In this document: piece by piece, positions 2,830-62,937 of the stretch
How the letters are laid out: the number at the start of each line of letters is the position of its first letter
How positions within the stretch are numbered: the stretch's first letter is position 1
Source: Hymenopus coronatus
Taxonomy: Eukaryota; Arthropoda; Insecta; Mantodea; Hymenopodidae
Direction: 5' to 3'
Assembly: GCA_030762935.1 (NCBI GenBank)
Contig: CM060890.1
Span: forward strand, 149,072,129 to 149,136,128
DNA length: 64,000 bases
Position numbers and translations under genes: made by a program
The notes under the pieces: generated by a model
Database searches by the model: none
What the model was told of the DNA's origin: nothing
What the model saw: the letters and a program-made list of their open reading frames with translations, nothing else

Positions 2830-3296
2830 TTTACTTTTTACAGGTACTAAAAAATAAAACAAAATAAAATCTATAATACAACATCCTGGCATCTTGTTCC
2901 CTATACCAGGACGTATATTGCAAACTTTATCATTTATTTCCCACTTTTAAATTATTGTTATACATCATTATTTTACAGATAATACTTATATACTAATAAC
3001 TCAAACTTTACTTTAAAACAAAAACAAATTAATATAAACTGAAATAAAATAAGTTCCAACCATAAAACAACTTTCACTAACACTAAATCATCCATTATTA
3101 ATTACTGGAATCCAGTAACACAAATAACTGGTAACCAGCTATTTACCCATAAAACTATGCTCTAGATTATTAAGACAAATGAAAAACTAATCCTATACTA
3201 CTGGTATCCAGCAGAATATGCACTGGTTACCTGCGCAACTAAATAATTATATTATACAATAATTTCTTTACATTGTAGTAAACTGTAGTAAATTGT
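2830..3296. other. AT-rich unassigned spacer
   Basis: Very AT-rich sequence with no open frame of note. It leads into the 44-bp array, whose boundary is sharp at 3297. Confidence 0.5.
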
Positions 3297-3780
3297 CTTT
3301 TACTTCCTTTGGCTAATATCTGTTACTAATTATACCTAATCTTTTACTTCCTTTGGCTAATATCTGTTACTAATTATACCTAATCTTTTACTTCCTTTGG
3401 CTAATATCTGTTACTAATTATACCTAATCTTTTACTTCCTTTGGCTAATATCTGTTACTAATTATACCTCATCTTTTACTTCCTTTGGCTAATATCTGTT
3501 ACTAATTATACCTAATCTTTTACTTCCTTTGGCTAATATCTGTTACTAATTATACCTAATCTTTTACTTCCTTTGGTTAATATCTGTTACTAATTATACC
3601 TAATCTTTTACTTCCTTTGGTTAATATCTGTTACTAATTATACCTAATCTTTTACTTCCTTTGGTTAATATCTGTTACTAATTATACCTAATCTTTTACT
3701 TCCTTTGGCTAATATCTGTTACTAATTATACCTGATCTTTTACTTCCTTTGGCTAATATCTGTTACTAATTATACCTAAT
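3297..3780. repeat. 44-bp tandem repeat, 11 copies
   Basis: Eleven head-to-tail units with a constant 44-bp period, each starting CTTTTACTTCC and containing TTTGGCTAATATCTG and TACTAATTATACC. Variation is limited to single substitutions (GGCTAA/GGTTAA, CCTAAT/CCTCAT/CCTGAT), which indicates recent amplification. The unit does not match the H element. Confidence 0.95.
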
Positions 3781-4098
3781 CTTTTACATCATCATTACAC
3801 TAAACTCACTGTATTTAACTTTTTAACACTATTTAACACTTCACTAACACTTCCTCCCCTTGCCTCGTACTGTCCACCGCCAGAAGCCCATAATCCACCA
3901 TTCCTGCTCTCATACGCCTTCTGCATCCCTCTTATCGCTCTGGTCTACACCGGCTCCTTCTTCTTCGCCTCCTTCTACTATACTCGGCTCTCCATCTTCC
4001 ATTAGTCTCCATATTTAGAATTAGTTTGCATTATTTGTTCTTCCTCTTCTTCCCATATACTTCCTCCCTTGGGTTCATAGTTATTTAAGTTGCAATTT
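3781..4098. other. Unassigned spacer, C/T-rich
   Basis: Flank of the 44-bp array. It has a higher GC, pyrimidine-rich part (about 3850-4010). On the minus strand this gives a short Arg-rich reading frame with a stop in it. No known family recognised. Confidence 0.4.
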
Positions 4099-13924: not shown

Positions 13925-14810
13925 TTACTTTCTCTATACGTGCTATGTATATAGTGTATATAGAAGGTATTGCACTCAACCAAAAAATTCCATACCGAGA
14001 TTTCACCGGAAATATATATTTTAGGGTCCCCTGTATCCAAAAAAAGTATTTTAAGAAAAAGGTCCGCATGTGTGTGTATGTGTGTCCATGTGTATGTGTG
14101 TCCGTGTGTCCGTGTGTCCATGTGTCCGTGTGTGTGAACACGATAACGAAAAGTTGGTAAAATACCAAACTTGGTATTTAAGTTTAGTATCTTCCAGGGA
14201 TGCAACACGAAGATTTTGAGAAAAATCCCCCCACCCCAAACTACCTTTACATGAAACGTTTTTCGAAAATTTTGATTTTCTAAAAATGGCTCTAACGATT
14301 TTGATTAAAATATCGTATATTAACGATATTTACATAACAAATAAAATCTCTATTTTCAATTTTCTGGAAACAGCCTCTGAAGACTACTTTATTCTCGGTC
14401 AATTTTACGGAATTTTGCATAACTGCTAAACCGTAAGAGATGGACAAAAACTTACCACATAACAAATGTAGAGCACCTTAAAACACACAATTTATGTTAT
14501 ATACATTTTTTTTCGTGGAGTTGATTGCTTTTTAGATACTCCTTGCTTTTTTTTTCAGCTATAAAGACTTATACTTTTCTCATACAGGACTTTGTGAACT
14601 CGTGTCCATACAAACAAAGGAACTTCAGTCGCAGAGCAACCAGCTTTTGACTATCACTTTAACCTATGGTACCTCCTTATTTCGCTTCTACTAACAAGGA
14701 AGCAAGTAATAAGCCTATTTCTGCTAACTTTTGCTCCATTAGATGAAGTAAATAGAATAATTTGTTGCAGTGATATAGACAAAGTCATGTGAATAGAACA
14801 CATCAGAATT
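13925..14810 (-). mobile_element. H element, full length, inserted in SINE1
   Basis: Complete minus-strand copy of about 886 bp with palindrome, a TG/TCCG microsatellite (14067-14135) and a 5' terminus ending GAACACATCAGAATTTT. SINE1 body lies on both sides, so the H element is younger than that SINE. Confidence 0.9.
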
Positions 14811-14924: not shown

Positions 14925-15790
14925 TCTGATGTGTTCCATTCACATGACTTTTTCTATAGCTCTGCAACAAATTGTTATTAAAAAGCTTATGCTTCTATTT
15001 ACTTCATGCTAATTGAGAAAAAATTAGCAGAAATATTCTTATTACTTGCTTCCTTGTAAGTAGAAGCGAAATAAGGGAGTACAATAGGTTAAAGTGATAG
15101 TCAAAAGCTGGCTGCTATGTGACTGAGGCTCCTTTTTGTGTATGGACAGGAGTTGATAAATTCTTGTGTGATAAAAGCATAAGATTTTACAAGGTGAAAT
15201 CAAAAACAAGGAATATCTCAAAAACGATCATCTCCACGAAAAAAAATGTATATAACATAAATTGTGTGCCTTAACGTGCTCTGCATTTTTTCTATGGTAA
15301 GTTTTTGCCCATCCCTTACGGTTTAACAGTTATGCAAAATTCCATAAAAGTCATCCAGAATAAAGTAGTCTTCAGAAGATATTCCCAGAAAATTCAAGAT
15401 ATACATTTCATTTGTCAGGTAAATAGCTTGAATATACGATACTTTAATCAAAATCATTAGAGCCATTTTTGAGAAAATCAAAAATTTTAAAATAGTTCCA
15501 TGTAAAGGGTAGTTGGTTTGGGGGATTTTCTCAATATATTTGTATCGAATCCCTAGAAGATACTAAACATAAATACCAAGTTTGGTATTTTACCAACTTT
15601 TCAGTTTTGAGTTATCGTGTTCACATGCACACGGACACACACACATACGGAAGTTTTTCTGAGAATGGTTTTTCTTTGGATACAGGGAATCTTAAAACAT
15701 ATATTTCCGGTGAAATCTCGGTATCGAATTTTGGGTGGAGTGCAATACCTTCTCTATACACTATGTACATATGCGTATAGAGAAAGTAAA
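14925..15790 (+). mobile_element. H element, full length
   Basis: Plus-strand copy of 866 bp, from AATCTGATGTGTTCCATTCA to the palindrome TACACTATGTACATATGCGT followed by ATAGAGAAAGT. It begins exactly at the end of a SINE1 A-tail. It belongs to the GTTATCGTGTTCAC subfamily. Confidence 0.95.
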
Positions 15791-18596: not shown

Positions 18597-18642
18597 TAAT
18601 GTCGCCATAGAATAGTTTTATAGCAGTCACTAATAAGGATAG

Positions 18643-20345
18643 AAGTTAGAGAAAGTAACGTAATACGTAATCCACCCAAAAATTCTCTACCGAGCTTTCG
18701 CCGGGAACATAGGTTTCAGGAACCCATGTATCTAAAAAAAAAAAAAAAAAAAAAAACATTAGAAAAAGGTCTGTGAGTGTGTGGGGGCAGCATAGCCCAA
18801 AAACAAAAGTCATTTAAATACCAAGCTTGATATTTAAGTTCAGTATCTCCCCCAAGATGCGACACAAAGATATTCAATACAAGTCCACCAACACCTTTTT
18901 CAAATTTTTGATTTTATATAAATGCCTCTAATGATTTTGTATAAAATTTCTTATCGTTAACATATCAATGGAAAGTATATCTTGAATTTTCTGGGAAAAG
19001 TTTTTGAAGACCTCTTCATTCTGGATGATTTTTGTATAACTGACAAACCGTAAGAGATATACAAAAACTTACTACACAAAAATGTAGATCTCATTAAAAC
19101 AGGCAATTTATGTCATATACTTTTGGGATGGAGTGAACCGTTTAGAGAAATTCCGGATTATTAGTTTCAATTTGAAGCCACTTAAACGTTTCTGGAACAG
19201 GAAGACATCCGTTAAAAAAAAAAAAAAAAAACACAGAATGGAATTTCAATTATTTCATATAGCGACCAACTTTTATAGGACCAGACTATCGCTTTAGGCT
19301 GTGCATTTGCTTATCTCCCTTCTACTTACAAGGGAGCTAGTAATAAGAATAATTCTACTTATGGTTAGCATGATGAAGATAACAGATTCATGTTTACCGA
19401 ACAGCTAGAGGACATCATGTGAATGGAACACATTAGATGTTTCCCTTCTACTGACAAGGAGCTAGTAATACTGCTAGTGTTTATCTTGATTAGCATGATG
19501 AAGATAACAGATTCATGTTTACCGAACAGCTAGAGGACATCATGTGAATGGAACACATTAGATGTTTCCCTTCTACTGACAAGGAGCTAGTAATACTGCT
19601 AGTGTTTATCTTGATTAGCATGATGAAGATAACAGATTCATGTTTACCGAACAGCTAGAGGACATCATGTGAATGGAACACATTAGATGTTTCCCTTATA
19701 ATCACAAGGAGCTAGTAATACTGCTAGTGTTTATCTTGATTAGCATGATGTAGATAACAGATTCATGTTTACCGAACAACTAGAGCACATCATGTGAATG
19801 GAACACATTAGATGTTTCCCTTCCACTGACAAAGGAGCTAGTAATACGACTAATTCAGCTGGTGTTTATCTTGATTAGCATGATGAAGATAACAGATTCA
19901 TGTTTACCGAACAACTAGAGCACATCATGTGAATGGAACACATTAGATGTTTCCCTTCTACTGACAAGGAGCTAGTAATACTGCTAGTGTTTATCTTGAT
20001 TGGCATGATGAAGATAACAGATTCATGTTTACCGAACAACTAGAGCACATCATGTGAATGGAACACATTAGATGTTTCCCTTCTACTGACAAGGAGCTAG
20101 TAATACTGCTAGTGTTTATCTTGATTGGCATGATGAAGATAACAGATTCATGTTTACCGAACAACTAGAGGACATCATGTGAATGGAACACATTAGATGG
20201 TTCCCTTCCACTTACAAGGGAGCTAGTAATAAGACTAATTCCTTATGTTTATCTTGATTAGCATGAAGTAGATAACATATTAATGTTTTGAATAAAAGGT
20301 TTGTTTACGGAACAGCTAGAGGACATCATGTGAATGGAACACATT
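18643..20345 (-). mobile_element. H element with tandemly multiplied 5' end
   Basis: Minus-strand copy starting at a degenerate 3' end (TTAGAGAAAGTAACG), with a poly-A run at about 18729-18750, a short microsatellite and GGCAGCATAGCCCAAAAACA. The normal body reaches about 19376. From there its 5'-terminal portion is repeated about eight times (see the 125-bp array). Confidence 0.85.
19377..20345. repeat. 125-bp tandem array derived from the H 5' end
   Basis: Units starting AGATAACAGATTCATG lie at 19377, 19502, 19627, 19752, 19887, 20012, 20137 and 20269. The period is 125 bp except for two insertion-bearing units. Each unit contains CATGTGAATGGAACACATTA (H terminal hairpin), then CTTCTACTGACAAGGAGC and TTATCTTGATTAGCATGATG, which is the first ~125 bp of an H element in reverse. 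Units are nearly identical, indicating recent amplification. Confidence 0.95.
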
Positions 20346-20357
20346 GGATTTTTTTCT

Positions 20358-20591: not shown

Positions 20592-21450
20592 TCTGATGTG
20601 TTCCATTCACATGATTTTCTCTATATCTCTGTAACAAATTATTGTTAATAAGCTTATTCTTTTATTTATTTCATGCTAATCGAGAAAAATGATCTTGCTT
20701 TATTGTAAGTAGAAGCGAAATAAAGGAGTACCATAGGTTAAAGTGGTAGTCAAAAGCTGGTTGCTATGTGACTGAAGTTCGCTTGTTTGTATGGATACGA
20801 GTTGGCAAATTTCTGTATGAGAAATGTATAGCTTTTTAAAAGTTGAAACCAAAAACAAGGAACATGTCAAAAACGATCAACTCCACGAAAATAAAATTAT
20901 ATAACATAAATTGTGTGTTTTAACGTGCTCTACATTTTTTGTGTGTTAAGTTTTTATTCATCTTTTAAGATTTAGTAGTTATGCAAAATTCATCCAGAAT
21001 AAAGTAGTCTTCAGAAGCTATTCCCAGAAAATTCAAGATATACATTTTATTTATCAGGTAAATATCTTTAATATACGATATTTTAATCAAAATCGTTAGC
21101 CATTTTTTAGAAAATCAAAATTTTCGAAAAAAATTCCATGTAAAGGGTAGTTGGGAATGGAGGGATTTTCTTGAAAATCTTCGTGTCGCATCCGTGGAAG
21201 ATACCAAACCTAAATACCAAGTTTGGTTTTTAACGGACTTTTCGGTTTTGGGCTATGCTGCCCACAGACACACACACATACACACACACACAGACAGACA
21301 GACACACATGGAAATTTTTCTAAAAACGTTTTTTTTTGGATTCAGGAGATCTCAAAACATTTTTTTCCGGTGAAATCTCTGTATGGAATTTTTGAGTGCA
21401 TTAAAATACCTTCTCTATACACTATGTACATAGCGCGTATAGAGAAAGTA
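20592..21450 (+). mobile_element. H element, full length
   Basis: 859-bp plus-strand copy from TCTGATGTGTTCCATTCACA to the palindrome (CACTATGTACATAGCGCGTA, then TAGAGAAAGT). The CA/CAGA microsatellite lies at 21267-21307 after GGGCTATGCTGCCC. Confidence 0.95.
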
Positions 21451-21462
21451 AAAAAAGAACTA

Positions 21463-22985
21463 TTTTACTTACAAGGGAGTTAGTAATAAGACTAATTCTG
21501 GGCGTTATATTCGACCGGAAGTTAACATGGGCTCCTCAAATAACTGCCCTCAAACAAAATTGCATAAGACGAATAGCAGCAAAGAAGTGGGGAGCACATT
21601 TTAAAATCTTACTAAATACTTAGAGAAGCATCATTCGATCTAAACTGGATTACGGCAGTATAATGTTTAACTCGGCAAAACCATCTGTATTAAATAAACT
21701 CAACTAGGAGCATGTCGCACTAGCCCGAGTGCTAGTTCTCAAACAGAAGCAAATGAACCGCCCTTTGATATACGAAGAAAACAGCTGAGTACCTATGTCT
21801 TATGCACTTAATATAGCAGCCTCGCCTGTGGATTTTCCGAATGAACATTTACAGAAGAAAAATCCAATGCCTTTTGCACTATGACAGAAACAGTACTTTC
21901 AAGAAACACATTTACCATTTTCTAACATTGCCACAATTAATCTAACCACAGACATCCCTGCTTGGAGAGTTACACTTCCTGAAATTAACATGAAAATATC
22001 CTACTTTGTTAAAAGCCAAACAAATAAACTGATATACAAGCAACTACTGAAAGAACAATGACAGCATTACCCACATTATATTCACATATATACCGATGGA
22101 TCGCAGACTGGAACGGGTGTGGTTTATCCTGCCCACACCATGCTGTACACATTATCGCATTTCTACCCTATATTTAGTTGTGAGCTATATGCCATCAAGA
22201 AAGCATTTCTATATTTATCCGAGACAAAGAAACCTGAAGCTTGCTTGATTCTAAATCCAGTATACTGACTCTACAAGATCTGTTCTCTACAAATCCACTG
22301 GTCCAAGAAATTCAACAGGTATCTACATTTCTAATGAAACAAGGAAGGGAAATAGCCAGAACATTTTAGGTAATGAGCAGGCAGACTCTGCAGCAAAGGA
22401 GGCCACAAGACTCCCAATACATGAAGAGACACCTTTACCCCACAAACATGTTGCAAAATATGCGTCCTCTGGCAAACAACATGGGCACAATCACCTCCTA
22501 GCAAACTACACGACATTAAACAGAACTCCACTGCAGAAACTGAGACGGAAAGACTATCGGACACACCAAGTTAACCCATTCCCATCTACTGAATAGAACA
22601 GCCCAACCTGAATGTCACTTACTCTCAGAGTGTCCTCAGCATGGACAGCAGCGAGCAGAATGCAATCTACCAGACATCCAAGAAGCACTCAACAATTCAT
22701 CACACAGCAAAACACTACTTAAATACTTAAAACTAACAAATATGTATAATGAAATATAATGTTACATAAATTTATGAAATTGTATATACCAATGTAAATG
22801 GTACCATTAAAACATGTTGTCGCGAACTACCTTGTAAGTTCAAGCAACATAAAATAAATAAAATGACTCATTCTACTTATGTTTATCCTGATTAGCATGA
22901 TGTAGATAACAGATTAATGTTTTCAATAAAATGACTGTTTACAGAACAGCTAGAGGACATCATGTGAGTGGAACGCGTCAGATTA
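21463..22985 (-). mobile_element. H element 5'-end fragment split by a LINE
   Basis: Left piece TTACAAGGGAGTTAGTAATA to 21499 and right piece from 22865 (GACTCATTCTACTTATG) to the 5' terminus near 22985 (GTGGAACGCGTCAGATT). Together they make one minus-strand H fragment, interrupted by the LINE copy. Confidence 0.85.
21500..22864 (+). pseudogene. LINE ORF2 remnant: end of RT and RNase H region, 5'-truncated
   Basis: Plus-strand frames read ILGVIFDRKLTWAPQITALK, then CIRRIAAKKWGAHFKILLNT, a stop, and RSIIRSKLDYGSIMFNSA. This is the post-catalytic end of a Jockey/I-type reverse transcriptase domain. After a stop and frame changes, HIYTDGSQTGTGVVY marks an RNase H start (TDGS) and CELYAIKKAFLYLSE its continuation. 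A later GNEQADSAAKEATRLP is the terminal RNase H motif with the D of 'QADSAAKEA'. Numerous stops and shifts make it non-functional. It ends in an A/T-rich AAATAAATAAAA tail. Flanking GACTAATTCT (21490-21499) and GACTCATTCT (22865-22874) form a 10-bp target duplication with one mismatch, in an H element. Confidence 0.85.
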
Positions 22986-23077
22986 TTTCCCTTCCACTTA
23001 CAAGAAACTAAGTAATAAGACAATTTCTGTTAATGTTTTTCTCGATTACCATGAAGTAGATAAAAGAATAAGTTTTT
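22986..23077 (-). mobile_element. H element, 5'-region fragment
   Basis: Short minus-strand piece (TTCCACTTACAAGAAACTAA to GAATAAGTTTTTAA) immediately before the next complete copy. Confidence 0.75.
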
Positions 23078-28333: not shown

Positions 28334-29185
28334 ACCTGATGTGTTCCATTCACATGACTTTCACTACATATCTGCAACAAATTATTGTTAAAAAGCCTAT
28401 GCCTCTATTTACTTCATACTAATCGAGAAAAAAATAGCAGAAATAGACTTATTACTTGCTTGCTTGTAAGTAGAAGCGAAATCAGGGTGTACCATAAGTT
28501 AAAGTGATAGTCAAAAGCTGGTTGCTATGTAACTGAAGTTCAATTGCTTGTATGAACAGGAGTTGACACATGCTTGTATGAGAAAAATGTTTCAAAGATG
28601 AAACCAATAACAAGGAATATCTCAAAAACGATCATCTCCACGAAAAAAATGTATATAACATAAATTGTGTGCCTTAACCTGCTCTACATTTTTGTATGGT
28701 AAATTTTTGCCCATCTGTTACGGTTTAACAGTTATGCAAAATTCCATAAAATTCATCCAGAATAAAGTAGTCTTCAGAAGATATTCCCAGAAAATGTAAG
28801 ATATACATTTTATTTGTCAGGTAAATAGTTTGAATATACGATATTTTAATCAAAATCATTAGAGCCATTTTTGAGAAAATCAATTTTTTTTAAAATTGTT
28901 TCATGTAAAGGGTAGTTGTGGTGGGGGATTTTCTAAATATCTTTGTATAGAATCCCTAGAAGATACTAAACATAAATACCAAGTTTGGTATTTTACCGAC
29001 TTTTCAGTTTTGAGTTATCGTGTTTACAGACACACGGACACGGAAGTTTTTCTGAGAATGTTTTTTCTTTGGATACAGGGACCTTAAAACATATATTTCC
29101 GGTGAAATCTCGGTATCGAATTTTTGGGTGAGAGTGCAATACCTTCTCTATACACTCTGTACATAATACGTATAGGGAAAGTCAA
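28334..29185 (+). mobile_element. H element, full length
   Basis: 852-bp plus-strand copy, CCTGATGTGTTCCATTCACA to the palindrome (CTCTGTACATAATACGTATA, then GGGAAAGT). Microsatellite nearly absent (ACAGACACACGGACACGG). A mariner remnant starts directly after it. Confidence 0.95.
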
Positions 29186-29499: not shown

Positions 29500-29519
29500 C
29501 CGATCCCCGTATGTACGTG

Positions 29520-32500
29520 TCTGTGATTGTGAGAGAGTGTGTGTGTGTGTGTGTGAGTGTGTGTGTGAGTGTGTATCTGTGTGTGAATGAGGGAGTATGT
29601 GTGTGTGAGTGTGTGTGTGTGCGAGTGTGTATCTGTGTGTGAATGAGGGAGTGTGTGTGTGTGTGTGTGTGAATGAGGGAGTGTGAGTGAGGAAGTGTGT
29701 GTGTGTGAGTGAGGGAGTGTGTGTGTGTGTGAAGGTGTGTGTCTGTGTGAGTGTGCGTGTGTCTGAGTCAGGGAGCATGTGTGTGAGTGAGGGAGCGTGT
29801 GTGTGAGTGAGGGAGCGTGTGTGTGTGAGTGAGGGAGTGTGTGTGAGTGAGGGAGTGTGTGTGTGAGTGAGGGAGCGTGTGTGTGAGTGAGGGAGCGTGT
29901 GTGTGAGTGAGGGAGTGTGTGTGTGTGTGAAGGTGTGTGTCTGTGTGAGTGTGCGTGTGTCTGAGTCAGGGAGCATGTGTGTGAGTGAGGGAGCGTGTGT
30001 GTGAGTGAGGGAGCGTGTGTGTGTGAGTGAGGGAGTGTGTGTGAGTGAGGGAGTGTGTGTGTGAGTGAGGGAGCGTGTGTGTGAGTGAGGGAGCGTGTGT
30101 GTGAGTGAGGGAGTGTGTGTGTGTGTGAAGGTGTGTGTCTGTGTGAGTGTGCGTGTGTCTGAGTCAGGGAGCATGTGTGTGAGTGAGGGAGCATGTGTGT
30201 GAGTGAGGGAGCGTGTGTGTGAGTGAGGGAGCGTGTGTGTGAGTGAGGGAGCGTGTGTGTGTGAGTGAGGGAGTGTGTGTGAGTGAGGGAGTGTGTGTGT
30301 GAGTGAGGGAGCGTGTGTGTGAGTGAGGGAGAGTGTGTGTGAGTGAGGGAGTGTGTGTGTGAGTGAGGGAGCGTGTGTGTGAGTGACGGAGAGTGTGTGT
30401 GTGAGTGAGGGAGTGTGTGTGTGAGTGAGGGAGTGTGTGTGTGAGTGAGGTGGTGTGTGTGAGTGAGGGGGTGTGTGTGAGTGAGGAAGAGTGAGTATGT
30501 GAGTGAGGGAGTGTGTGTGTGAGTGAGGGAGTGTGTGTGTGAGTGAGGGAGTGTGTGTGTGAGTGAGGGAGTGTGTGTGTGTGAAGGTGTGTGTCTGTGT
30601 GAGTGTGCGTGTGTCTGAGTCAGGGAGCATGTGTGTGTGTGAGTGAGGGAGTGTGTGTGTGAGTGAGGCAGAGTGAGTATGTGAGTGAGGGAGTGTGTGT
30701 GTGAGTGAGGGAGTGGGATTGTGAGTGAGGGAGTGTGTGTGTGAGTGAGGAAGAGTGTGTGTGTGAGTGAGGGAGTGTGTGTGTGTGTGAGTGACAGAGT
30801 AAGCGTGAGGGAGTGTGAGTGAGGGAGTATGAATGAGGGAGTGTGTGTGTGTGAGTGAGTGAGGGAGTGTGTGTGTTTCAGTGAAGGCGTGTGTGTGTGT
30901 GTGAGTGAGGGAGTGTATGTGTGTGAGTGTGTGAGTGTGTATGTATATGAGTGTGTGAGTGTGTGTGTTTATGAGTGTGTGAGTGTAAGTGTGTGTGCGA
31001 AAGTGTGAGTGTGCGTGTGTCTGTGTGTGAGTGAGGGAGTGTGTGTGTGTGAGTGACAGAGTAAGCGTGAGGGAGTGTGAGTGAGGGAGTATGAATGAGG
31101 GAGTGTGTGTGTGTGAGTGAGTGAGGGAGTGTGTGTGTTTCAGTGAAGGCGTGTGTGTGTGTGTGAGTGAGGGAGTGTATGTGTGTGAGTGTGTGAGTGT
31201 GTATGTATATGAGTGTGTGAGTGTGTGTGTTTATGAGTGTGTGAGTGTAAGTGTGTGTGCGAAAGTGTGAGTGTGCGTGTGTCTGTGTGTGAGTGAGGGA
31301 GTGAGTGAGTATGTGAGTGTGTGAGCGAGTGTGTGTGAGTGTGGGAGTGTGTGTGTCTGTGTGTGAGTGAGGGAGTGTGTGAGTGTGTGAGATTGAGTGT
31401 GCGTGTGTGAGATTGAGTGTGCGTCTGTGAGAAAGTGTGTGGGTGCTAGTGAGGGAGTGAGTGTGAGGGAGTGAGTGGGTGTGAGTGAGAGAGTGTGTGT
31501 GAGGGAGTGTGTGTGAGTGAGCTAGTGTGTGGGTGTGAGTGAGAGAGTGTGTGTGAGTGAGGGAGTGTGAGTGCGAGTTAGTGCGTGTGAGAGAGAGTGT
31601 GTGTGAGAGTGTGTGTGAGTGTAAATGTGTGTGAATGTGTGAGAGTGTGTGTGAGGGAATGTATGGGTGTGAGTGAGAGAGTGTGTGGGTGTGAGTGAGA
31701 GAGTGGGTGTGTGTGAGAGTGTGTATGTGAGGGAGTGTGTGGGTGTGAGTGAGGGAGTGTGTGTGAGAGTGTGTGTGAGGGAGTGTGTGGGTGTGAGTGA
31801 GGGAGTGTCTGGGTTTGAGTGAGGGAGTGTGTGGGTGTGACTGAGGGAGTGTGTGTGAGTGTGTGAGTGAGAGTGTGGATGTGAGTGAGAGAGTGTGTGG
31901 GTGTGAATCAGGGAACGTGTGTGTGTGAGGGAGTGTGTGGGTTTGAGGGAGTGTGTGGATGTGAGTGAGGGAGTGTGTGAGTGTGAGTGAAAAAGTGTGT
32001 GTGTGAGTGAGAGAGAGTGAGTGTGTGAGTGAGTGTGTGTGAGTGTGTGTGGGTATGAGTGAGGGAGTGTGTGAGTGAGTGTGTGAGTGTGTGAGTGTGT
32101 GTGTGAGTGTGAATGAGGGAATGTATGAGTGAGGCAGTATGTGTGTGAGTGAGTGAGTGTGTGTGTGAGTGTGTGAGTGAGTGAGTGAGTGAGTGAGTGA
32201 ATGTGAGTGAGTGAGTGAATGCCAGTGAGTGTGTGAGTGAGTGTGTCTGTGTGTGAGTGAGGGAGTGTGTGTGAGAGGTATTGTGAGAGTGAGTGAGTGT
32301 GTCTGTGTGAGTGAGTGTGTCTGTGTGAGTGAGTGTGTGTGGGTTCGGTAGTGAGTGAGTGTGTCTGTGTGAGTGAGTGTGTGTGGGTTCGGTAGTGAGT
32401 GAGTGTGTCTGTGTGAGTGAGTGTGTGTGGGTTCGGTAGTGAGTGAGTGTGTCTGTGTGTGAGTGAGGGAGTGCGTGATTGAATGTGTGTGTGTGAGTGA

Positions 32501-33540
32501 GTGTGTGTCTGTCTGTGAGTTCGAGTGTGTGAGTGCGTTGTGTGAAGTGTGAGTGAGGGAGTGTGTGAGTGGGTGTGTGTGAGTGTGAGTGAGGGAGAGT
32601 ACGAATGTGTGTGTCTGTGTGTGAGTGTGTGTGAGTGTCTGTGTGTGAGTGTGTGTGAGTGTCTGTGTGTGAAAGCGAATGTGTGAGTGTGTGTGTGTCC
32701 TTGTGCGAGTGTCTGATAGTGTGAGTTTGTGTGAGTATGTGAGTGTATGTGAGTGTGTGTGAGAGTGTGAGTGTGTGTGAGAGTGTGAGTGTGTGTGAGA
32801 GTGTGTGTGAGTGTGTGTCAGTGAGTGTGTGTGCGAATATGTCTGTGAGTGTTTGTGATTGTGTGTGTGAGTTTGTGTGAGTGTGTGAGTGTATAAGAGT
32901 GTGTGGAAGTGTGAGAGTGTGTGAGTGTGTGGGAGAGTGTTTGAGTGTGTGAGTTTGAGAATGTGTGAGTTTATGAGTGTGTGGGTGTGCGAGAGTGTGT
33001 GAGAGTGTGTGAGTGTGTGTGAGAGTGTGTCAGTGTGAGAGTGTGTGAGAAATTGTGAGTGTGTGAGAGTGTAAGTCAGAGTTTGAGTGTGTGTGAGTGT
33101 GTGTGTGAGAGTGTGTGGGTGTGTGTGTGAGAGTGTGTTAGTGTGAATGTGTGTTAGTGTTTGTGAGTGAGTGTGAGTGTGTGAGTGAGTGTTAGGGTAT
33201 GAGTGTGTGTGTGAGTGTGTGAGTGTGTGTGTGTCTCTGTGTGAGTGTGTGTGTCTGTGTGTTAGTGTGTGTGAGTGTGTGTGAGTGTGTGTGTGAGTGA
33301 GTGTAAGTGTGTGTGTGTGTGTGTCGGTGTGAGTGTTTGAGCGTGTGCGTCTTTGTGTGAGTGTCTGTGATTGTATGTGAGTGTGTAAGTGTTTGTGTCT
33401 GTGTATGAGTGTGTGTGTGAGTGAGTGTGAGTGTGTGTGTGTGTGTCTGTGTATGAGTGTGTGTGTGAGTGAGTGTGAGTGTGTGTGTGTGTGTCTGTGT
33501 ATGAGTGTGTGTGTGAGTGAGTGTGAGTGTGTGTGTGTGT
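29520..33540. repeat. 4-kb (GTGTGAGTGAGG)-type compound array
   Basis: About 4 kb of GT/GA repeats (GTGTGTGTGAGTGAGGGA, GTGAGAGTGTGT and others) with very little C on the plus strand. It contains higher-order structure. A 198-bp block marked by CTGAGTCAGGGAGCATG recurs at 29763, 29961 and 30159 (again at 30614). A 262-bp block with GTGACAGAGTAAGCG lies at 30791 and 31053. A block with GTGGGTTCGGTAGTGAG is triplicated near 32340-32450. The right end passes without a break into H sequence (GTGGACAGCTTAGCTC), so it is most simply an expanded H microsatellite. The reverse-strand reading frames (417 and 232 codons of Ser/His/Thr/Leu/Pro) are artefacts. Confidence 0.95.
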
Positions 33541-34112
33541 GTGGGTGGACAGCTTAGCTCAAAAACGAAAAGACCGTTAAATAGCAAGCTTGGTATTTAG
33601 GTTCGGTATCTTTCAAGCCTGTATCTCGAAGATTTTCAAGAAAACTCCCCCACTCCCAACTAGCCTTTACATGAAACATTTTTCGGAAATTTTGCTTCTT
33701 TAAAACACGGCTCTAACGATTTTGATTAAAATCCCGTATATTAAATATATTTACATCCCAAACAAAATGTGTATCTCGGATTTTCTGGAAATAGCCTCTG
33801 TAGACCTCTTTATTCTGGATGAATTTTGCTTAACTGCTAAAGAGTAAGAAGTAGACAAAACCTCACCATACAAAATATATTGAGCATGTTAAAACACACA
33901 ATTTATGTAACATGTCGTGAAGTTGAGATATTCCTTGTTTTGGTTTCAGTTTTTAAAAACTTATACTTTTCTCATACATGAATTTGTCAACTCCTATCCA
34001 TACAAACAAAGGAACTTCAGTCATATAGCAACCAGCTTTTGACTATCACTTTAACCTATGGTTCTCCCTTATTTCGCTTCTACTTACAAGGAAGCAAGTA
34101 ATAAGAATATTT

Positions 34113-34262: not shown

Positions 34263-34487
34263 AAGATATTAACTGAATGCTTACTATACGTGGAGAGTAA
34301 GTAAGAAATGGGTCAGGGTGAAGAAGGGCTGCTGTGGATAACGAGGTTAGAGACGGCGCTGGACAGCTCCCCTTTGTGATATCTCACCCTCACAGAAAAA
34401 AATGAACGTCTTGCACTTTACGCCCTTATCTAAATCAACATAACAGAAACTGAATATAACAGCAGTACCAAACATGTACATGAAAAT

Positions 34488-35368
34488 CTGATGTGTTCCA
34501 TTCACATGACTTTTTCTGCATCTCTGCAACAAATTATTGTTAAAAACCTTTTGTTGCTATTTACTTTATGCTAATTGAGAAAACATTAGCAGAAATAGTC
34601 TTATTTCTTGCCTCCTTGTAAGTAGAAGCGAAATAAGGGAGTAGTAAGGTTTAAAGTGATAGTCAAAAGCTGGTTGCTATGTAATTGATGTTCCTTTATT
34701 TGTAAGGACACAAGTTTACAAATTCCTGTATGAGAAAAGTAAAAGTTTTCAAAGCTGAAACTAAAAACAAGGTATATCTCAAAAACGATCAACTCCACGA
34801 AAAAAAGTTATTTAACATAAATTGTGTGTTTTAATGTGCTCTACACTTTCTGTGTTTTAAGTTTCTGTCCATCTCTTACGGTTTAGCAGTTATGCAAAAA
34901 TCCGTAAAATTCATCCAGAACAAAATAAGTCTCCAGAGGCTATTCCCAGAAAATTCAAGACATACATTTTATTTGTCAAGTAAATATCTTAAATATACGA
35001 GATTTTAATTAAAATCCTTAGAGCCATATTTAATAAAATCAAAATGTTCTTAATTTTTTCCATGTAATGGGTAGTTTGGGGTGGGGGGGATTTTCTTCAT
35101 ACCAAAATTAAATATCAAGTATGGTTTTTCACGGTCTTTTAATTTTTTAGCTATGCTGCCCACAGACAAACAGTCAGACAGACACACAGAGAGACTGACT
35201 AACAGACAGACACACACACGGACATTTTACTAAAAAATTTTTTTTTGGATTCAGGGGGTCTCAAAACATAGTATTCCGGTGAAATCTCGGTATCGAATTT
35301 TTGGGTGCAATAGAATAGCTGCTCTATACACTATGTACATAGTACCTACGTGTAGAGAAGGTAAATAT
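34488..35368 (+). mobile_element. H element, full length
   Basis: Plus-strand copy from TCTGATGTGTTCCATTCACA to CTATGTACATAGTACCTACG, then TGTAGAGAAGGTA. The microsatellite is a CAGA/CACA mixture (35163-35221) after GCTATGCTGCCC. A second H 5' end (35371-35392) begins at once and is cut by a mariner at the TA of CATATACTAGGG. Confidence 0.95.
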
Positions 35369-35392: not shown

Positions 35393-36348
35393 TAGGGTCT
35401 CCTGATAAGTCCCGGGCCTATTAATGATAACAGCATTTAAAAAAATATTTTGCTTTATTTCTCAACATAATCTCCAGAAAGACCAATACATTTGTCTTAT
35501 CGTTGTTCTAACTTAATTACACCATCTCTGTAGCTGTTTAGCCCGCTCGGGTAGTGTGGTGGTAGCGTATCTGCCTCACATTCAAAAAGTCTCGCCAAGG
35601 ATGAGTTACTCGGATAAGGTTTTTTTCGAGGTTTTCCCTTATCCTGAGAAGACGAATGTCGAGTAACTTTAAGCTCCGTGGACCCCGAGAACATTTGAGC
35701 ATCATTTCACCAATTTCATCCATCGTCCGATATGACCAACCAGGTTAAAGGACGTTAAGCTACAAACAAACAAAAAAAAAATAAGAAACTGTTTACCGCA
35801 TCAATGACCTCATTGCTGTGAAATCCTCGGCCTCCAAGAAATTGTTTGAGGTTTGGGAACAGTTGGTAGTCACTGGGTGCTAGATCCGGCGAATAGGGCG
35901 GATGTTCAAGCAATTCCAACTTTGATTCGCACATGTTTCCCATTGCAATGACTGAACGATGAGCCGGAGAGTATAGTCGTGATGAAACAAGATTTTCTTT
36001 TTTTTCTTCTTCTTTTTTTTCAAATGTTTTTTTTCTTTTGACCTCATCACTCAAACGTTGCAGAAGCTTGGGTAGTAGTCACCAGTCATATTTTTACTCT
36101 TTTCCAAGTAATCAATAAAATTAATTCCCTGTGCATGCCAGAAAACACTCGCCATAACCTTGTTAGCTGACAAAATTGACTTTGAATTTTTTTGGAGTTG
36201 ATGCACCTGACGCACGCAATCCACTGTTTTGACTGTGATTTACCTTCTGGAGTGTAGTGATGCATCCAAGTTTCTTCCGTGGTAATAAGCCGTCTCAAAA
36301 TTTCACCGGGAGTTTTACGGTAGATCTCCACATTCTTAACAAAAACAG
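35393..36348 (-). pseudogene. mariner element, transposase dead and split by SINE1
   Basis: A terminal repeat CTAGGGTCTCCTGATAAGTC starts at 35393 beside a TA. On the minus strand the C-terminal coding part reads PPYSPDLAPSDYQLFPNLKQ, then FLGGRGFHSNEVIDAVNS. Further upstream LRRLITTEETWMHHYTPEGK corresponds to the first catalytic block. There the usual DETW is EETW, so the first catalytic Asp is lost, and the second block reads LYSPAHRSVIAM instead of DNAPAH, so the second is lost as well. Only the third (APSDY) remains. A SINE1 separates the last ~40 codons. The N-terminal third and the other terminal repeat are missing; H sequence follows at 36349. Confidence 0.9.
35541..35788 (+). mobile_element. 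SINE1 inserted in mariner
   Basis: Plus-strand SINE1 (GCCCGCTCGGGTAGTGTGGT... to CAGGTTAAAGGACGTTAAGC and an A-rich tail). The B box is damaged by deletion (AAAAAGTCTCGCC). CTGTTTA at 35534-35540 and 35789-35795 is a likely 7-bp target duplication of the mariner coding sequence. Confidence 0.9.
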
Positions 36349-36434
36349 TTTTTCACATAAAAAGAATAAGCTTTTTAATAATAATTTATTTCAGAAATGT
36401 AGAGAAAGTCATGTGAATGGAACACAATAGATTT
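36349..36434 (-). mobile_element. H element, 5'-terminal stub
   Basis: AGAATAAGCTTTTTAATAAT to ATGTGAATGGAACACAATAG: the outermost ~85 bp of an H copy. Confidence 0.85.
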
Positions 36435-39092: not shown

Positions 39093-40440
39093 CTAGGACG
39101 GTTCAATAAGTCATTAGAAATTCCACTCGTAGCATCGAAAAGTTTGTATAGTATCCGTCGTCTCCTACTAGATGGCAGCTATATCCATCACGTGGTTTCG
39201 TAGCCTTAGGCGATTCAATCAACAATCTTATGCTGATTTAGAAAGATGGAAAACACAATTTTCGTGCGGTGATTAAACACTTCTATTAAAATAACTTAAC
39301 ACCGAAAGAGATAAAAGCCGAGTTGAAGTTCATGGCACATCTGCTCCTGCGTTTGTCACAATTTACAATTGGATAAATGAATTTAAACGTGGCCGTACAT
39401 CCACAAATAATGAAAATCATTCCAGACGTCCAGTAGAAGTGACTTCCTCTGAAATGATCGACAAAATCCAGGATATGGTTTTCAGTAATCGACGAATCAA
39501 AGTTCAGGAAACAGTAGAGGTCACAGGTACAGTGTTCTCAATTGTTCATCAAAAATTAGGTATGACAAATGTCTCGTCAAGATGGGTGCCGCCTTTGCTC
39601 TCAATGGAGAAAAAATGCAATCGTGTGATCGATTCAGAAGCTGGTTTGCCAATTTTCCGTCGCAATCCTGACGAGTTTCTGCGCCGATACATAGCTGTAA
39701 ATGAAACATGGATACACAACTACATTCCAGAGACAAAAATACAGTCAAAACACTGAGTTTTAAAAGGTGAACCGGCTACGAAGAAGGCAAAGGTGATGGA
39801 ATGGCGTTTTATTTATGGACGTTCTTAACTGCTGTGGTTCTCAGCGTCCCATTCTAAATTGGGCGTGAAAGACCGCTTAATTTTGCTCAGAGGCCTCTCT
39901 ATCAGGCTTGAGGTTCTTTTACGTGCCGTAAATCTACGACACGGGACCCACGGCTTTACTTCCCTTCCGAAGGAAGCCATGCTAAGGATTTTTACGCCCG
40001 AAAAATCCATCGTCCTCCGGCGGGTTTAAACCCACGACCTAGGGTATATGAAGTCAGCATGGTAACCATTACACCACGGAGGGCGACAAGCAAAGGTGAT
40101 GACCTCGGGGTTTTTTTGGGATGCACGCGGAATCATTTACATTGATTACTTACAGAAAGGAAGAATTACGCATCGTTATTGCACCGGTTGAACGGAGAAA
40201 AAGCGCCCAAATCTGGCAAAGAAGAAGATTCTCTTATCAAGACAGTGCAAGGGTTCACAATTTAAAAAATTGTAGAATTAAGGTTAGAAATACTACAACA
40301 TCCACCAGGTTTGGCCGCCAGTGACGTTTTATTTCCAAACTTGAAAAAATGGCTCGACGGAAAAGGATTCAGATCTCCCAAACAGAGGAGCTACAGATTG
40401 GAAAGCTGGAAAAGTGTATTGAGCTAAAGGAGATTCTGGC
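39093..40440 (+). pseudogene. mariner element, transposase dead and split by SINE2
   Basis: Begins with a terminal-repeat-like CTAGGACGGTTCAATAAGTC after a TA. N-terminal coding fragments in shifting frames include TIYNWINEFKRGRTSTNNEN, then HSRRPVEV; next TSSEMIDKIQDMVFSNRRIK is the helix-turn-helix region. The longest open part (39439-39756) ends FLRRYIAVNETWIHNYIPET. The catalytic DETW reads NETW, so the first catalytic Asp is replaced. SINE2 follows, and then the C-terminal half resumes with heavy damage (IYIDYLQKGRI; the catalytic DNAPAH block and the PPYSPDLAP block survive only as decayed traces near 40240-40330). Over six stops or shifts are visible. The 3' terminal repeat is not clear. 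Confidence 0.85.
39799..40089 (-). mobile_element. SINE2 inserted in mariner, with 12-bp target duplication
   Basis: Reverse SINE2: head CGCCCTCCGTGGTGTAATGG at the right, B-box-like GTGGGTTTAAACCC, body with GAAGCCATGCTAAGGATTTT on the plus strand. GCAAAGGTGATG occurs at 39787-39798 and 40090-40101 as a perfect 12-bp duplication. Only one copy of the 112-bp body segment is present, unlike 18128-18533. Confidence 0.95.
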
Positions 40441-44526: not shown

Positions 44527-45499
44527 ATTTTTATTTTCTCTATACGTACTATGTACATAGCGTATAGAGAAGGTATTGTATTCCACCCAAAATTTTGATA
44601 CTGAGAATTAACCGGAAATACATGTTTTGGGTCCCCCTGAAACAAAAAAATATCATTTTTACTTTCTCTATACGTACTATGTTCGTAGTGTATAGAGAAG
44701 GTATTGCACTCCACCCAAAAATTCGATACCGACATTTCACCGGAAATATATGTTTTAGGGTCCCCTGTATCCAAAAAAAGCATTTTCACAAAAATGTCCG
44801 TGTGTGTGTGTGAACACGATAGCTCAAAAACGAAAAGTCGGTAAAATACCAAAGTTGGTATTTAAGTTTGGTATCTTCCAGGGGTGCCACACGAAGATTT
44901 TCAGAAAAATCCCCCCACCCCAAACTACCCTTTACATAGAACTTTTTTCGAAAATTTTTATTTTCTAAAAAATGGCTCTTACGATTTTGATTAAAATTTC
45001 GTATATTAAAGATGTTTACCCGACAAATAAAATGTATATCTTGAATTTTCTGGGAAGAGTCTCTGAAGAATACTTTATTCTGGATGAATTTTACGGTATT
45101 TTGCATAACTGCTAAATCGTAAGAGATGGACAAAAACTTACAACACAAAAAATGCAGAGCACTTTAAAACGCACAATTTATCTTATAGATAATTTTTAGT
45201 GGAGTTGATCGTTTTTAGATAGCCCTTGTTTTTTGGTTTCAGCTTTAAAAAGCATACTTTTGTCATAAAGGAATTTAGTAATTCCAGTCCATACAAACAA
45301 AGGAAATTGAGTGACATAGCAACCAACTTGTGACTATCACTTTAACCTGTGCTACTCCCTTATTTTAATCCTACTTCCAAGGTAGCAAGTAATAGGACTA
45401 TTTCTTGATTAGCATGAAGTGAATAGAATCATAAGCTTTGTTGCAGAGATATAGAGAAGTCATGAGAATGGAACACATCAGATTTTTACAAAAAGGCCC

Positions 45500-45533
<34 letters not shown>

Positions 45534-46210
45534 ACAGCATAGCTCAAAAACGAAAAGACCGTCAAATACCAAACTTGGTATTTAAGTTTGGCATCTTCCA
45601 AGGATGCGACAAGAAGATTTTCAAGAAAATCCTCCACCGCCAACTACCCTTTACATGGAACTTTTTTCGAAAATTTTGATTTTCTCAAAAATGGCTCTAA
45701 CAATTTTGATTAAAATATCGAATATTAAAGATAGTTATCTGACAAATAAAATGTATGTCTTGAATTTTCTGGAAATAGTCTCTGAAGACTATTTTATTCT
45801 GGATGAATTTTACGGAATTTTGCGTAACTGCTAAATCGTAAGAGATGGACTAAAACTTAACATACAGAAAATCTAGAAGGGATTAAAACACACAATTTAT
45901 GTCATACACTTTTTTCGTGGAGTTGATCGTTTTTTTTAGATATTCCTTGTTTTTGGTTTCTGCTTTGGAAAACATACTTTTCTCATACAGGAATTTTCCA
46001 TACAAACAAAGGAACTTCAGTCACATAGCAGCCAACTTTTGATTATCAGTTTAGCATATAGTACTCCCTTATTTCCCTTCTACCTACAAACATGCCAGTA
46101 ATAGCACTATTTCTGTTATTTTTTCTTGATTAAAATTAAGTAAATAGAATCATAAGCTTTTTAACAATAATTTGTTGCAGAGATGTAGAGAAAGTCATGT
46201 GAATGGAACA
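44527..46210 (-). mobile_element. H element (outer), split by another H element
   Basis: Left piece 44527-44655 (palindrome to CCCCTGAAACAAAAAAATAT) and right piece 45487-46210 (ACAAAAAGGCCCGCGTGTGT to GAAAGTCATGTGAATGGAAC) together give one consensus H copy. It is interrupted by the complete copy at 44656-45486. Confidence 0.9.
44656..45486 (-). mobile_element. H element (inner), full length, nested
   Basis: 831-bp minus-strand copy, ACTTTCTCTATACGTACTAT to AATGGAACACATCAGATTTT, with GTGAACACGATAGCTC. It belongs to the other subfamily from its host copy (GTGGACAGCATAGCTC). Confidence 0.95.
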
Positions 46211-46279: not shown

Positions 46280-46760
46280 GCTATCATCTCTTACATCCCA
46301 AATCAACCGTTATACATTTTATAATATTTGAGATAGGAAAACAAGAAGTCACATGCTGGGTTTTATAAAATATTGGGAAGATGTCTTTCGTTCTCTTGTT
46401 CAACATACACCATTCTTTGTGAACAGGATCTTGCAGATGTCTTGGAATGTTAGTAATTTCTTGCGAGATGGTATCTTTCAATTTCTGTTGCGTTGATGGA
46501 AAACTTTTTGTCGAAGATAACAACCAAAAGTCGGTGGGATTAAAATCTGGAGATCGTAGAGGCCACTTTTTTCTAAAGTGTCTATTGATTACACGATCGC
46601 CAAAGATCTAAGTAATTACTTGTTTTGCAGGGGCGTGGATATAGTGGATGGAGGGCCATCTTGAATGAAGATAATGTTTTCCATATCGTGATTCCTCATT
46701 TTTGGCCTGACGAAGTTTTATAACATGCCATGGTAGTGCTCACCATCTACAGCAGGAGGT
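46280..46760 (-). pseudogene. DDE (IS630/Tc1-like) transposase C-terminal remnant
   Basis: In the minus-strand frames, ENIIFIQDGPPSTISTP matches the 'QQDGAPPH' second-Asp block of arthropod DDE transposases. Then FGDRV-like and KWPLRSPDFNPTDFWLL fragments match the 'WPPRSPDLTPCDFFLW' third block, and the frame FPSTQQKLKDTISQEITNIP (minus frame 46284-46523) follows as the C terminus. Several stops and shifts separate the parts. Same superfamily as the pseudogene at 50170-51850 but not a close copy. Confidence 0.75.
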
Positions 46761-48343: not shown

Positions 48344-48450
48344 TTTTACTTTCTATATACGTACCATACACTAGTTTATAAAGATGATATTGCACTCCAC
48401 CCAAAAATTCGATACCGAGATTTCACCGGAAGTATATGTTTTAGGGCCCC

Positions 48451-48513
<63 letters not shown>

Positions 48514-49236
48514 CATTTTCAGAAATAGGTCCGTGTGTGTGTCTGTGTAAACACGATAACTCAAAAACGAAAAGTCGGCAAAATATCAAACTTGGTATTC
48601 AAGCTTAATATCTTCCAGGGATGCAGCACAAAGATTTTGAGAAAAATCACCCCACTCCAAACTACCGAACTTTTTTTCGAACATTTTTATTTTCTCAAAA
48701 ATGCCTCTAGCGATCGATATTGATTAAAATATCACAAATTAAAGATATTTACTTGGCAAATAAAATGTATATCTTGAATTTTCTGGAAATAGCCTCTGAA
48801 GACCACTTTATTCTGGATGCATTTTACGGAATTATGCATATCTACTATACCGTAAGAGATGGACAAAAACTTACCACACAAAAAACGTAGAGTACGTTAA
48901 AACACAGAATTTATGCTATATACATTTTTTCGTGTAGTTTATTATTTTTGAGATATTAGTTTTTATTGGTTTAAGCTTCTAAAAGCGTAAACTTTTCTCA
49001 TGTAGGAATTTGTCAACCCCTGTGCATGCAAACAAAGGAACTTCAGTCACATAGCAACCAGGTTTTGACTATCACTTTAACCTATGGTACTCCCTTATTT
49101 CACTTCTACTTACAAGGAAACAAATAATTAGACTATTTCTGCTAATTTTTTTCTCGATTAGCATGAAGTAAATGGAAGCATAATCTTAAAAATAATTTGA
49201 TTCAGAGATGTAGAGAAAATCATGGAACACATCAGA
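48344..49236 (-). mobile_element. H element, full length with TA expansion
   Basis: Minus-strand copy from TTTTACTTTCTATATACGTA to AATCATGGAACACATCAGAT. A (TA)n tract replaces the CCCCTGTATCCAAAAAAAGC junction. The ordinary TG microsatellite is still present at 48533-48547. Confidence 0.9.
48454..48512. repeat. (TA)n microsatellite inside an H element
   Basis: About 29 TA units between AGGGCCCCCTT and AAGCATTTTCAG of the H copy. Confidence 0.95.
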
Positions 49237-49274: not shown

Positions 49275-50035
49275 ATCTACTAGCAGCAACTGAAGGAGGC
49301 CAGTTAGTGAGCAATGCTAGATAGTGGTGTAGAGACCACGCAAGCCTACTCCAACACGTCATAGTTATACTCTGTGTGTACCGAACCTCAAGCCGGCAAT
49401 TCCTGACCCTGGACCAAGCTGTAGTCATCGTCTGCTAGCAGCAACTGATAGAGGCCAGGCAGTGAGCAATGCTAGATAGTGGTGTAGAGACCACGCAAGC
49501 CTACTCCATCACGTCATAGTTACACTCTCTGTGTACCGAACCTCAAGCTGGCAATTCCTGACCCTGGACCAAGCTGTAGTCATCATCTGCTAGCAGCAAC
49601 AACGAGGTTAGGCAGTGAGCAATGCTAGATAGTGTTGTAGAGACCACGCAAGCCTACTCCATCACGTCATAGTTATACTCTGTGTGTACCGAACCTCAAG
49701 CCGGCAATAACTTGACCCCGGACCAAGCTGTAGTCATCATCTACTTGCAGCAACTGAACGAGGCCAGACAGTGAGCAATGCTAGATAGTGGTGTAGAGAC
49801 CACGCAGGCCTACTCCATCACGTCATAGTTATACTCTGTGTGTATCGAACCTCAAGCCGGCAATTTCCTGACCCTGGACCAAGCTGTAGTCATCATCTAC
49901 TTGCATCAACTGAACGAGGCCAGACAGTGAGCAATGCTAGATAGTGGTGTAGAGACCACGCCAGGCTACTCCATCACGTCATAGTTATACTCTGTGTGTA
50001 CCGAACCTCAAGCCGGCAGTTTCCTGACCGCGGAC
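49275..50035. repeat. 155-bp tandem repeat, about 5 copies
   Basis: CTAGATAGTG lies at 49317, 49472, 49625, 49781 and 49937 (period 153-156 bp). Units contain GTAGAGACCACGCAAGCCTA, CATCACGTCATAGTTATACT and GACCAAGCTGTAGTCATC. Not related to H, SINE or LINE sequences here. Origin unknown. Confidence 0.95.
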
Positions 50036-60675: not shown

Positions 60676-61180
60676 CCTCATGTGTTCCATTCACATGACT
60701 TTCTCTACATCTCCATCCTTTAACCTGGTTGGTCATATCAGAAGATGAATGAAATTGGTGAAATGATGCTCAAATGATTTTGGGGTCCATTGAGCTTAAA
60801 GTCGCTCGACATTCGTCTTCTCAGGATAAGGGGGGAAAAAAAACTTATCCGGGCAACTCGCCCGAAGACAGATTAAAACACGCTACCTCCACGCTACCCA
60901 GGGGGGCAAAAAATTATTGTTATAAAATATTTTTCTATGTACTTCGTGCTAATAAAAACTAACAGAAATAGTCTTATTACTTGGTTCCTTGTAAGTAGAA
61001 GGGAAATAAGGGAGTAACATAGATTAAAGTGATAGTCAAAAGCTGGTTGCTATGTGGATCAAGTCCATTTCCTTGAGTGGTCAGGAGTTTACAAATTTCC
61101 ATAAGAAAAACGGTTTAAGTATTTTAAAACGGAGAGTAATAATATTGAATATCTGAATAATAGTGAACTCCATGAGAAAA
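60676..61180 (+). mobile_element. H element 5' part, split by SINE1
   Basis: Begins CTCATGTGTTCCATTCACAT, is cut at CTACATCTCC by a reverse SINE1, resumes at AAAAATTATTGTTATAAAAT and runs to GTGAACTCCATGAGAAAAC, where another H 5' end starts. Confidence 0.85.
60714..60906 (-). mobile_element. SINE1, shortened
   Basis: Reverse SINE1 (CTTTAACCTGGTTGGTCATA, GTCCATTGAGCTTAAAG, CGCTACCCAGG at the head end). Missing its A-tail portion and part of the B-box region. Confidence 0.85.
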
Positions 61181-62178: not shown

Positions 62179-62905
62179 TTACTTTCTATATACGCACATA
62201 GTGTATAGAGAAGATATTGCACTCCACCCAAAAATTACATACCGAGATTTCACCGGAAATATATGTTTTAGGGTCCCCTTTATCAAAAAAAAAAACATTT
62301 TCAGAAAAAGGTCCGTGTATGTGTGTGTCCGTGTGTCTGTGAACACGATAACTCAAAAGTCAATATAATACCAAACTTGGTATTTAAGCTAAGTATCTTC
62401 CAGGTGCGGCACGAAGATTTTGAGAAAAACACCCCCACCCCAAACTACCCATTACATGGAACATTTTACTAAACTTTTTATTTTCTCAAAAATGGCTCTA
62501 ACGATTTTGATTAAAGTATCTTATATTAAAGCTATTTACCTGACAAATAAAATAAATATCTTGAATTTTCTGGGAATAACCTCTGAAGACTGCTTTATTC
62601 TGGATGAATTTTACGGAATTTTGCCTAACTACTAAACCGTAAGAGATAGATCAAAATTTATTACACAAAACATGTAGAGCACGTTAAAACACACCAATTT
62701 ATGTTATATACATGTTTTTCGTGGAGTTGATCCTTTTTTAGATATTCCTTATTACTTTCTCCATACGCACTATGTGCATAGTGTATAGAGAAAGTATTGC
62801 ACTCCACCAAAAATTCGATACCGAGATTTCACCGGAAATATGTGTTTTAGGGTCCCCAATATCCAAAAAAAGCATTTTCACAAAAAGGTCCGTGTGTGTG
62901 TATGT

Positions 62906-62937
<32 letters not shown>

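Follow-up and report, generated by a model that had tools for sequence, protein, structure and literature searches.

What kind of element is the repeat located at 20592-21450 of the window, the 64,000-base stretch of DNA analysed here? The initial annotation described it as a Helentron-associated, DINE-1/HINE-like element present in about 50 copies. The repeat, here denominated H, is real, and sequences matching it are scattered over the window. In a profile search (profile built from 11 near-full copies) H-related copies make up 27,228 of the 64,000 bases (42.5%), distributed in 69 fragments. The figure of about 50 copies holds, because the 63 fragments scoring at least 20 bits are joined by simple greedy chaining into 51 units, seven of which are units of one satellite array. 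K2P distances of the 11 copies to their majority consensus range from 0.072 to 0.200, and most of them are therefore old. The copy at 62753-63641 and two copies found on other chromosomes are mutually within a few per cent.

The orientation of the element had been reversed, and 5' and 3' ends swapped. The strand initially read as that of the element was rejected on end motifs, T flanks and subterminal repeats; T/A context and ends fit the reverse strand, and the true 5' to 3' direction is from 21450 to 20592. Read on its own strand, H starts next to a T-run with TACTTTCTCTAYAC, followed by a spacer and by an inner repeat, GTGTATAGAGAAGGTA, complementary to the 5' repeat. A GT/GTCT microsatellite is found about 140 nt into the element, and is followed by a non-coding body. 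The element is closed by the 3' subterminal repeat GTAGAGAAAGT and by the stem-loop CATGTGAATGGAACACATCAGA, which forms the 3' terminus and is adjoined by a T-run. In the copy at 20592-21450 these features all map on the minus strand. The 5' subterminal inverted repeat ACTTTCTCTAT is at 21439-21449, a single base away from the 5' terminus; the inner repeat is at 21407-21422, the internal microsatellite at 21263-21308, the 3' subterminal inverted repeat ATAGAGAAAAT at 20614-20624, and the terminal stem-loop, a candidate rolling-circle terminator, at 20592-20613. What had been taken as a 5' hairpin is this 3' terminal stem-loop, and the supposed 3' palindrome results from the 5' subterminal repeat and the complementary inner repeat. 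The A/T-runs hosting the element are real, those described as A-runs being T-runs on the strand of the element.

The 3' motif, searched allowing up to 5 mismatches over 22 positions, occurs 34 times in the window, 7 times in inner satellite units; the 5' motif (up to 8 mismatches over 29 positions) occurs 19 times. In three order-1 Markov control sequences, hits were 0, 0, 0 and 0, 1, 0, respectively. Subterminal inverted repeats had been reported, and are indeed found: the 11-mers are complementary, with 0-3 mismatches, in 13 two-ended copies chosen by the analyst, ten of which pair at a fixed position and three after an indel shift. In the 62753-63641 copy the same unusual change is found in both repeats. 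Hairpins, the stems of which were read by eye from the sequence, are found at both ends, and the inverted repeats are asymmetric, being located 1 nt from one end and 22 nt from the other.

Full H copies are found on the plus strand at 1986-2827, 13926-14807, 44660-45482, 48347-49236 (this one featuring a (TA)n expansion) and 62753-63641, and on the minus strand at 14925-15788, 28335-29183 and 34487-35363. Some are nested. The 62753-63641 unit splits an outer H copy (62180-63914, plus strand), identified by both empty-site and profile searches, the own flanks of which join into H-like sequence. The 44660-45482 unit is inserted in the H copy at 44532-46210, where it has turned the 5' module into a 128-bp tandem dimer. 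The target of the 13926-14807 unit is a SINE-like repeat, and a SINE-like repeat (60716-60832) is in turn found within an H copy, near the H 3' end (60680-61181). The reciprocal insertions suggest that both types of sequences were probably active in overlapping periods.

Sites of insertion are T-rich. All the 22 hand-listed 5' ends have T at -1, and 13 have TTTT at -4 to -1, a string found at 1.8% of the window positions. At the 3' side (29 ends, seven inner satellite units being excluded and two ends added by hand) T is found at +1 in 25 and at +5 in 28 cases; the +1 base is A or G in the remaining four. Empty sites were searched by joining the flanks of 18 copies and looking for uninterrupted relatives. 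Matches across the join were found for nine copies. Five are low-complexity sequences, self-matches or very weak, and four are readable, those of 62753-63641 (many contiguous matches), 62180-63914 and 44660-45482, all in H, and that of 13926-14807, in the SINE-like repeat. The three H-in-H targets are T-runs, the SINE-like target is less clear. Filled sites carry about 3-5 more Ts than empty sites, and no target duplication of fixed length was detected in the four sites readable among the 18 copies tried. Insertion without a clear duplication, as initially proposed, is thus borne out, Ts being duplicated at most. Within T-runs a T-only duplication looks the same as Ts carried by the element, an ambiguity that Thomas et al. 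report also for HINEs.

Two alternative origins of H can be weighed at this point. H could be a MITE derived from a cut-and-paste DDE transposon, as it is short, lacks coding capacity and has inverted repeats near both ends, and DINE-like elements were formerly classed in this way (PMC4067079). No DDE partner came to light among the sequences examined. The asymmetry of the inverted repeats (1 nt versus 22 nt), the possible formation of hairpins at both ends, the lack of a fixed duplication at the four readable empty sites and the H 3' end found also in a Rep-encoding element, described below, make this origin extremely improbable. The same holds for a SINE, or another repeat retroposed at A/T-runs. 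Insertion in A/T-runs, some resembling SINE-like tails, would fit; both H ends are however sharp and hairpin-bearing, Ts are found at both ends rather than as a one-sided tail, the window has no Rfam match at gathering scores, and one H end is shared by the Rep element.

H had been described as devoid of coding capacity. Stop-to-stop frames of up to about 150 amino acids do occur in H, and the five frames tested match no Pfam family. The companion statement that the window hosts no Rep/helicase copy agrees with tblastn, in which 11 Rep relatives and 5 partner frames gave no window match at E<=0.01. Ten window ORFs scanned against Pfam similarly gave nothing above cut-off. Four ORF fragments (35758-36352, 39295-39753, 46287-46607 and 51428-51715) look mariner-like by their motifs, and Pfam gave nothing above cut-off for them. 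For a zinc-knuckle-like ORF at 53762-54970, 7999 candidates were scored, and none proved to be related at E<=0.001.

Rep-helicase genes were sought in the whole 3.13 Gb genome assembly, and 112 matches to PF14214 were found. In 17 of the best 30 loci the Rep motif is of the canonical type (GLPH or GMPH, plus a second His), and is broken in the rest; RGSPH was found in none of these 30. The strongest hits being canonical Rep genes, H might be regarded as a derivative of canonical Helitrons (5'-TC, 3'-CTRR, insertion between A and T), moved by those residing in the genome. The strand initially assigned to H starts with TC, yet neither strand ends with CTRR. T, and not A, precedes the 5' end in all 22 cases, which speaks against the canonical targeting between A and T, and a GSPH-type Rep is flanked by H ends. 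A canonical derivation is consequently very improbable. H fragments found in three of the 30 canonical loci provide no test, because loci of 3.3-3.5 kb do not extend as far as the ends of the elements. Canonical GLPH-type Rep genes (L013-L042) coexist in the genome with the GSPH type; several have long open frames, but stops occur in most of the genes. One of them, L042, was considered as a partner and discarded, since it reads TSPHAH in a broken frame within an otherwise canonical sequence.

Among 16 weaker PF14214 loci, GSPH was found only in L067, on contig C21, which reads VEIQMRGSPHEHMFFW. Its motif, EIQMRGSPHEH, matches ExQxRGSPHxH, with S before P in place of the GLPH arrangement. The S-type motif is reported as diagnostic of Helentrons (PMC4067079), and by this motif the protein can be placed in the Helentron/Helitron2 type. 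Two relatives of L067 from the protein collection (P0001 and P0003) share the S-type motif. A genome search with the L067 Rep gave 65 matches from 90 candidates. Pfam domains identified in the C21 copy are Helitron_like_N (51.2 bits), PIF1 (69.9 bits) and Pif1_2B (29.3 bits). The element features, in one orientation, an H-like 5' part, Rep, the PIF1 helicase and AGAGAAAGT-TATGTGAATGAAACACATCAGA-TTTTTTT. The sequence upstream of Rep/helicase matches H consensus positions 67-548 (70% identity, E 2e-49), the downstream sequence positions 845-876 (94% identity, E 1e-8). Stops break the coding stretch of the element; they interrupt the L079 copy, and no intact copy was seen. These Rep elements, which encode a Helentron-type Rep and PIF1, are decayed relatives of H residing in its own genome. 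Identity of the leader to H is only about 70%, and this element may therefore not be the immediate partner of H.

The search for longer elements sharing both ends with H, suggested by the initial annotation, succeeded for Rep, helicase and 3' end; the 5' end is indicated by similarity, and the expected endonuclease was not found. The Rep-element copies of C21, C11 and C17 all have an H-type 3' terminus followed by Ts, and then unrelated flanks. The C11 and C17 copies align with the C21 element up to the 3' end, and diverge thereafter. That a Rep element shares with H the way it ends is documented directly by three concordant 3' ends. The downstream regions of 13 other copies (7 + 6) were fetched by guessed position, and the Rep-element terminus was found only in C11 and C17, each after a further small fetch. 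In the C3 copy similarity is lost about 100 nt before the 3' terminus, in L083 earlier. The Rep-element terminus was not seen in the nine other regions, among which an ordinary H 3' end was found once and inverted H copies in some.

The 5' end is less sharply defined. A 1-kb query spanning the leader and its join to the core matched at least 45 places, with 40 of 1375 candidates scored. In three other copies the alignment continues through the leader at 85-89%, and 23 of the 45 matches listed begin at query base 333-350. The join between H-like and core sequences (CACATCAAGACRATGAAAAGA...) is conserved in four of eight upstream regions (C10, C11, C13 and C21 at 61.2 Mb). In these, the H-like leader has the same orientation, and is full-length in C10 and C11, partial in C13 and C21. 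Joins differ in the other four regions; C7, for instance, has H inserted into a T-run, and in C16 the H is inverted. The leaders split into two clades, of which the first lies next to an old H copy and the second on a long branch. The C21 and C3 copies have common sequence upstream of TACTTTC, hence divergence of the flanks does not define the 5' end of the Rep element. By similarity, this end plausibly corresponds to the H-like leader. The leader may be either the ancestor or a descendant of H.

No endonuclease was found in 12 frames of the C21 copy, in which about 900 nt separate the helicase part supported by Pfam from the 3' end. In the 3' parts, no frame encodes more than 115 (C21), 107 (C11) and 78 (C17) amino acids. 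By its motifs, the 115-residue frame may be the end of the helicase. Ends, insertion in T-runs and Rep-helicase relatives fit the DINE-1/HINE-type class originally proposed, and H, a non-autonomous rolling-circle transposon, very probably belongs to the Helitron2 group, which includes Helentrons and DINE-1/HINEs. H is a new family, and its class is already known. As described in PMC5148889, Helitron2 elements have asymmetric inverted repeats and a hairpin at each terminus, insert between TTTT and T or C, and lack an endonuclease; Helentrons are members of the group which feature in addition an endonuclease. By these definitions, and because no endonuclease was found, the label of Helitron2-type is preferred over that of Helentron in a strict sense; the initial assignment is supported as to class, and amended as to orientation and endonuclease. 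H could alternatively be a strict HINE, derived from a Helentron bearing an endonuclease that was missed or has been eroded. The anatomy of H fits that of HINEs (PMC4067079), and the 900 nt following the helicase part of C21, where frames are broken, could once have held the domain. The 12 frames lacking an endonuclease, and the short size of the longest frames in the three 3' parts, make this derivation unlikely. With the Helitron2-type assignment, a very abundant unclassified repeat receives a firm class, and same-genome Rep-helicase relatives having the same 3' terminus.

H resembles DINE-1/HINE elements, as these are described in PMC4067079, in the lack of coding capacity, the subterminal inverted repeats with an inner repeat beside the 5' one, the microsatellite, the 3' stem-loop, the tandem repeats carried by some members, the T-rich targets, the variable number of Ts and the lack of a clear duplication. 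The subterminal inverted repeats of DINE-1/HINEs measure 11-15 bp. In mite HINEs (PMC4067079), in contrast, the 3' subterminal repeat is located about 38-60 bp from the 3' terminus, versus 22 nt in H. A further difference is that the search for an endonuclease in the partner of H gave none. Fusarium FoHeli elements of the Helitron2 type share with H and its relatives the asymmetry of the inverted repeats, the hairpins found at either end and a Rep-helicase without endonuclease; they differ because the number of Ts is invariant, whereas it varies in H, which has its own terminal sequences and resides in what appears to be an animal-like host (PMC5148889). The Pacific oyster Cg_HINE (PMC7492417) similarly has a GTCY-type microsatellite in the left part, a 3' palindrome and T-rich targets, and carries tandem repeats. 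In Cg_HINE these are found between the end modules, whereas the unit repeated in H2, an H-related copy described below, contains the 3' terminal stem-loop.

H could move as follows. The Rep-helicase of the longer relative would nick the 5' end, between the T-run and TACTTTC, and one H strand would then be peeled off. Peeling would stop at the 3' subterminal repeat and stem-loop, and the single strand would be joined into a T-run without duplication. Nicking and termination are for H steps that we infer. H may have been moved by the decayed Rep elements or by intact kin, and would be a shortened derivative.

H units are often found head to tail. The exact join GGAACACATCAGATT-N(0-12)-TACTTTCTCTA occurs 3,936 times (1964+1972) in the genome, the reversed control never. 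At locus L006 complete H units, plus a partial 3' module, are arranged head to tail with TTTT in between. The spacer consists of Ts only in 18, and of TTTT in 12, of 20 join loci, which are the first matches and all come from contig C1. In a small sample of 89 sequences, from which the join-selected loci L043-L062 were excluded, 19 exact 3' ends and 2 head-to-tail associations were found, tail-to-tail and head-to-head associations being both absent.

In five of the 20 dimers, 250 or more positions were available for comparing the two units. Distances between their units (0.128-0.229) fall within the range of 256 unrelated pairs (mean 0.197), and 14% of these are closer than the closest dimer (L043). 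Shared derived changes are not in excess in four of the five; L049 ranks in the top 7%, L060 in the bottom 16%. In two of the five dimers, units differ two- to three-fold in divergence. These data, obtained from five pairs and with a test that a star-like burst would blur, lean towards separate insertions beside an older copy more than towards concatemers. Rolling-circle concatemer copying could still have generated the dimers. PMC12628747 describes repeated insertion as a source of dimers, and concatemer copying as a source of Helitron arrays. The tandem Helitrons attributed to rolling-circle slip by Xiong et al. (cited in PMC12628747) are likewise head-to-tail arrays of a single element. Many of them have several 5' ends but only one 3' end, whereas complete units or 3' modules are repeated here, and the five H pairs look more like separate insertions.

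In the H-related copy H2 (18641-20348, plus strand), which lacks the 5' end, the 3' module is repeated in tandem. The eight units measure 125-151 bp and all terminate at the stem-loop, and the seven joins between them are found at the consensus-equivalent CCC^TTATTTC; a similar join is at 22982/22983. The sequences at 18641-20348 and 22856-23077 represent an H-related family having a different 3' subterminal repeat (CTAGAGGACAT) and nearly the same stem-loop; the unit joins of its tandem 3' module are at a T-rich site.

It is possible, and for the time being a tentative reading, that H spreads chiefly by inserting in the T-runs of older H copies, and that oriented joins, satellites like H2 and the H leader of the Rep element all stem from this preference. 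T-runs both at the ends of and inside older H copies would be used. A nested insertion would generate at once a dimer of the 128-bp type, which unequal exchange could expand, and the Rep element may have gained the H leader when an internal terminator had weakened and was read through. A literature search, which is no proof of absence, found no published description of self-insertion yielding a 3'-module satellite. If self-targeting is true, non-autonomous H reshapes its own helper. Thousands of oriented joins and a 3'-module satellite provide a testable case of satellite seeding by re-insertion, rather than by concatemer copying.

Viral contigs were also monitored. The H 3' end had 0 matches, a 22-nt match to an H 5' piece in one contig was judged fortuitous, and three contigs with a degenerate Helentron Rep motif were set aside, as their long ORFs are phage-like by eye and none is Rep-helicase-like.

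Other repeats decorate the window. GT-rich simple-sequence arrays, kilobase-scale and distinct from H, are found at 29517-33547 and 1-1146, and are GTGTGTGAGTGAGGG-like and GTGTGTATCTCT-like. A GC-rich tandem array of 112 bp (16.8 copies, 94% match) spans positions 55841-57744 of the otherwise AT-rich window. Tandem arrays of 44 bp (3296-3787), 156 bp (49275-50029) and 153 bp (61835-62146) were also identified, and the latter two adjoin H copies.
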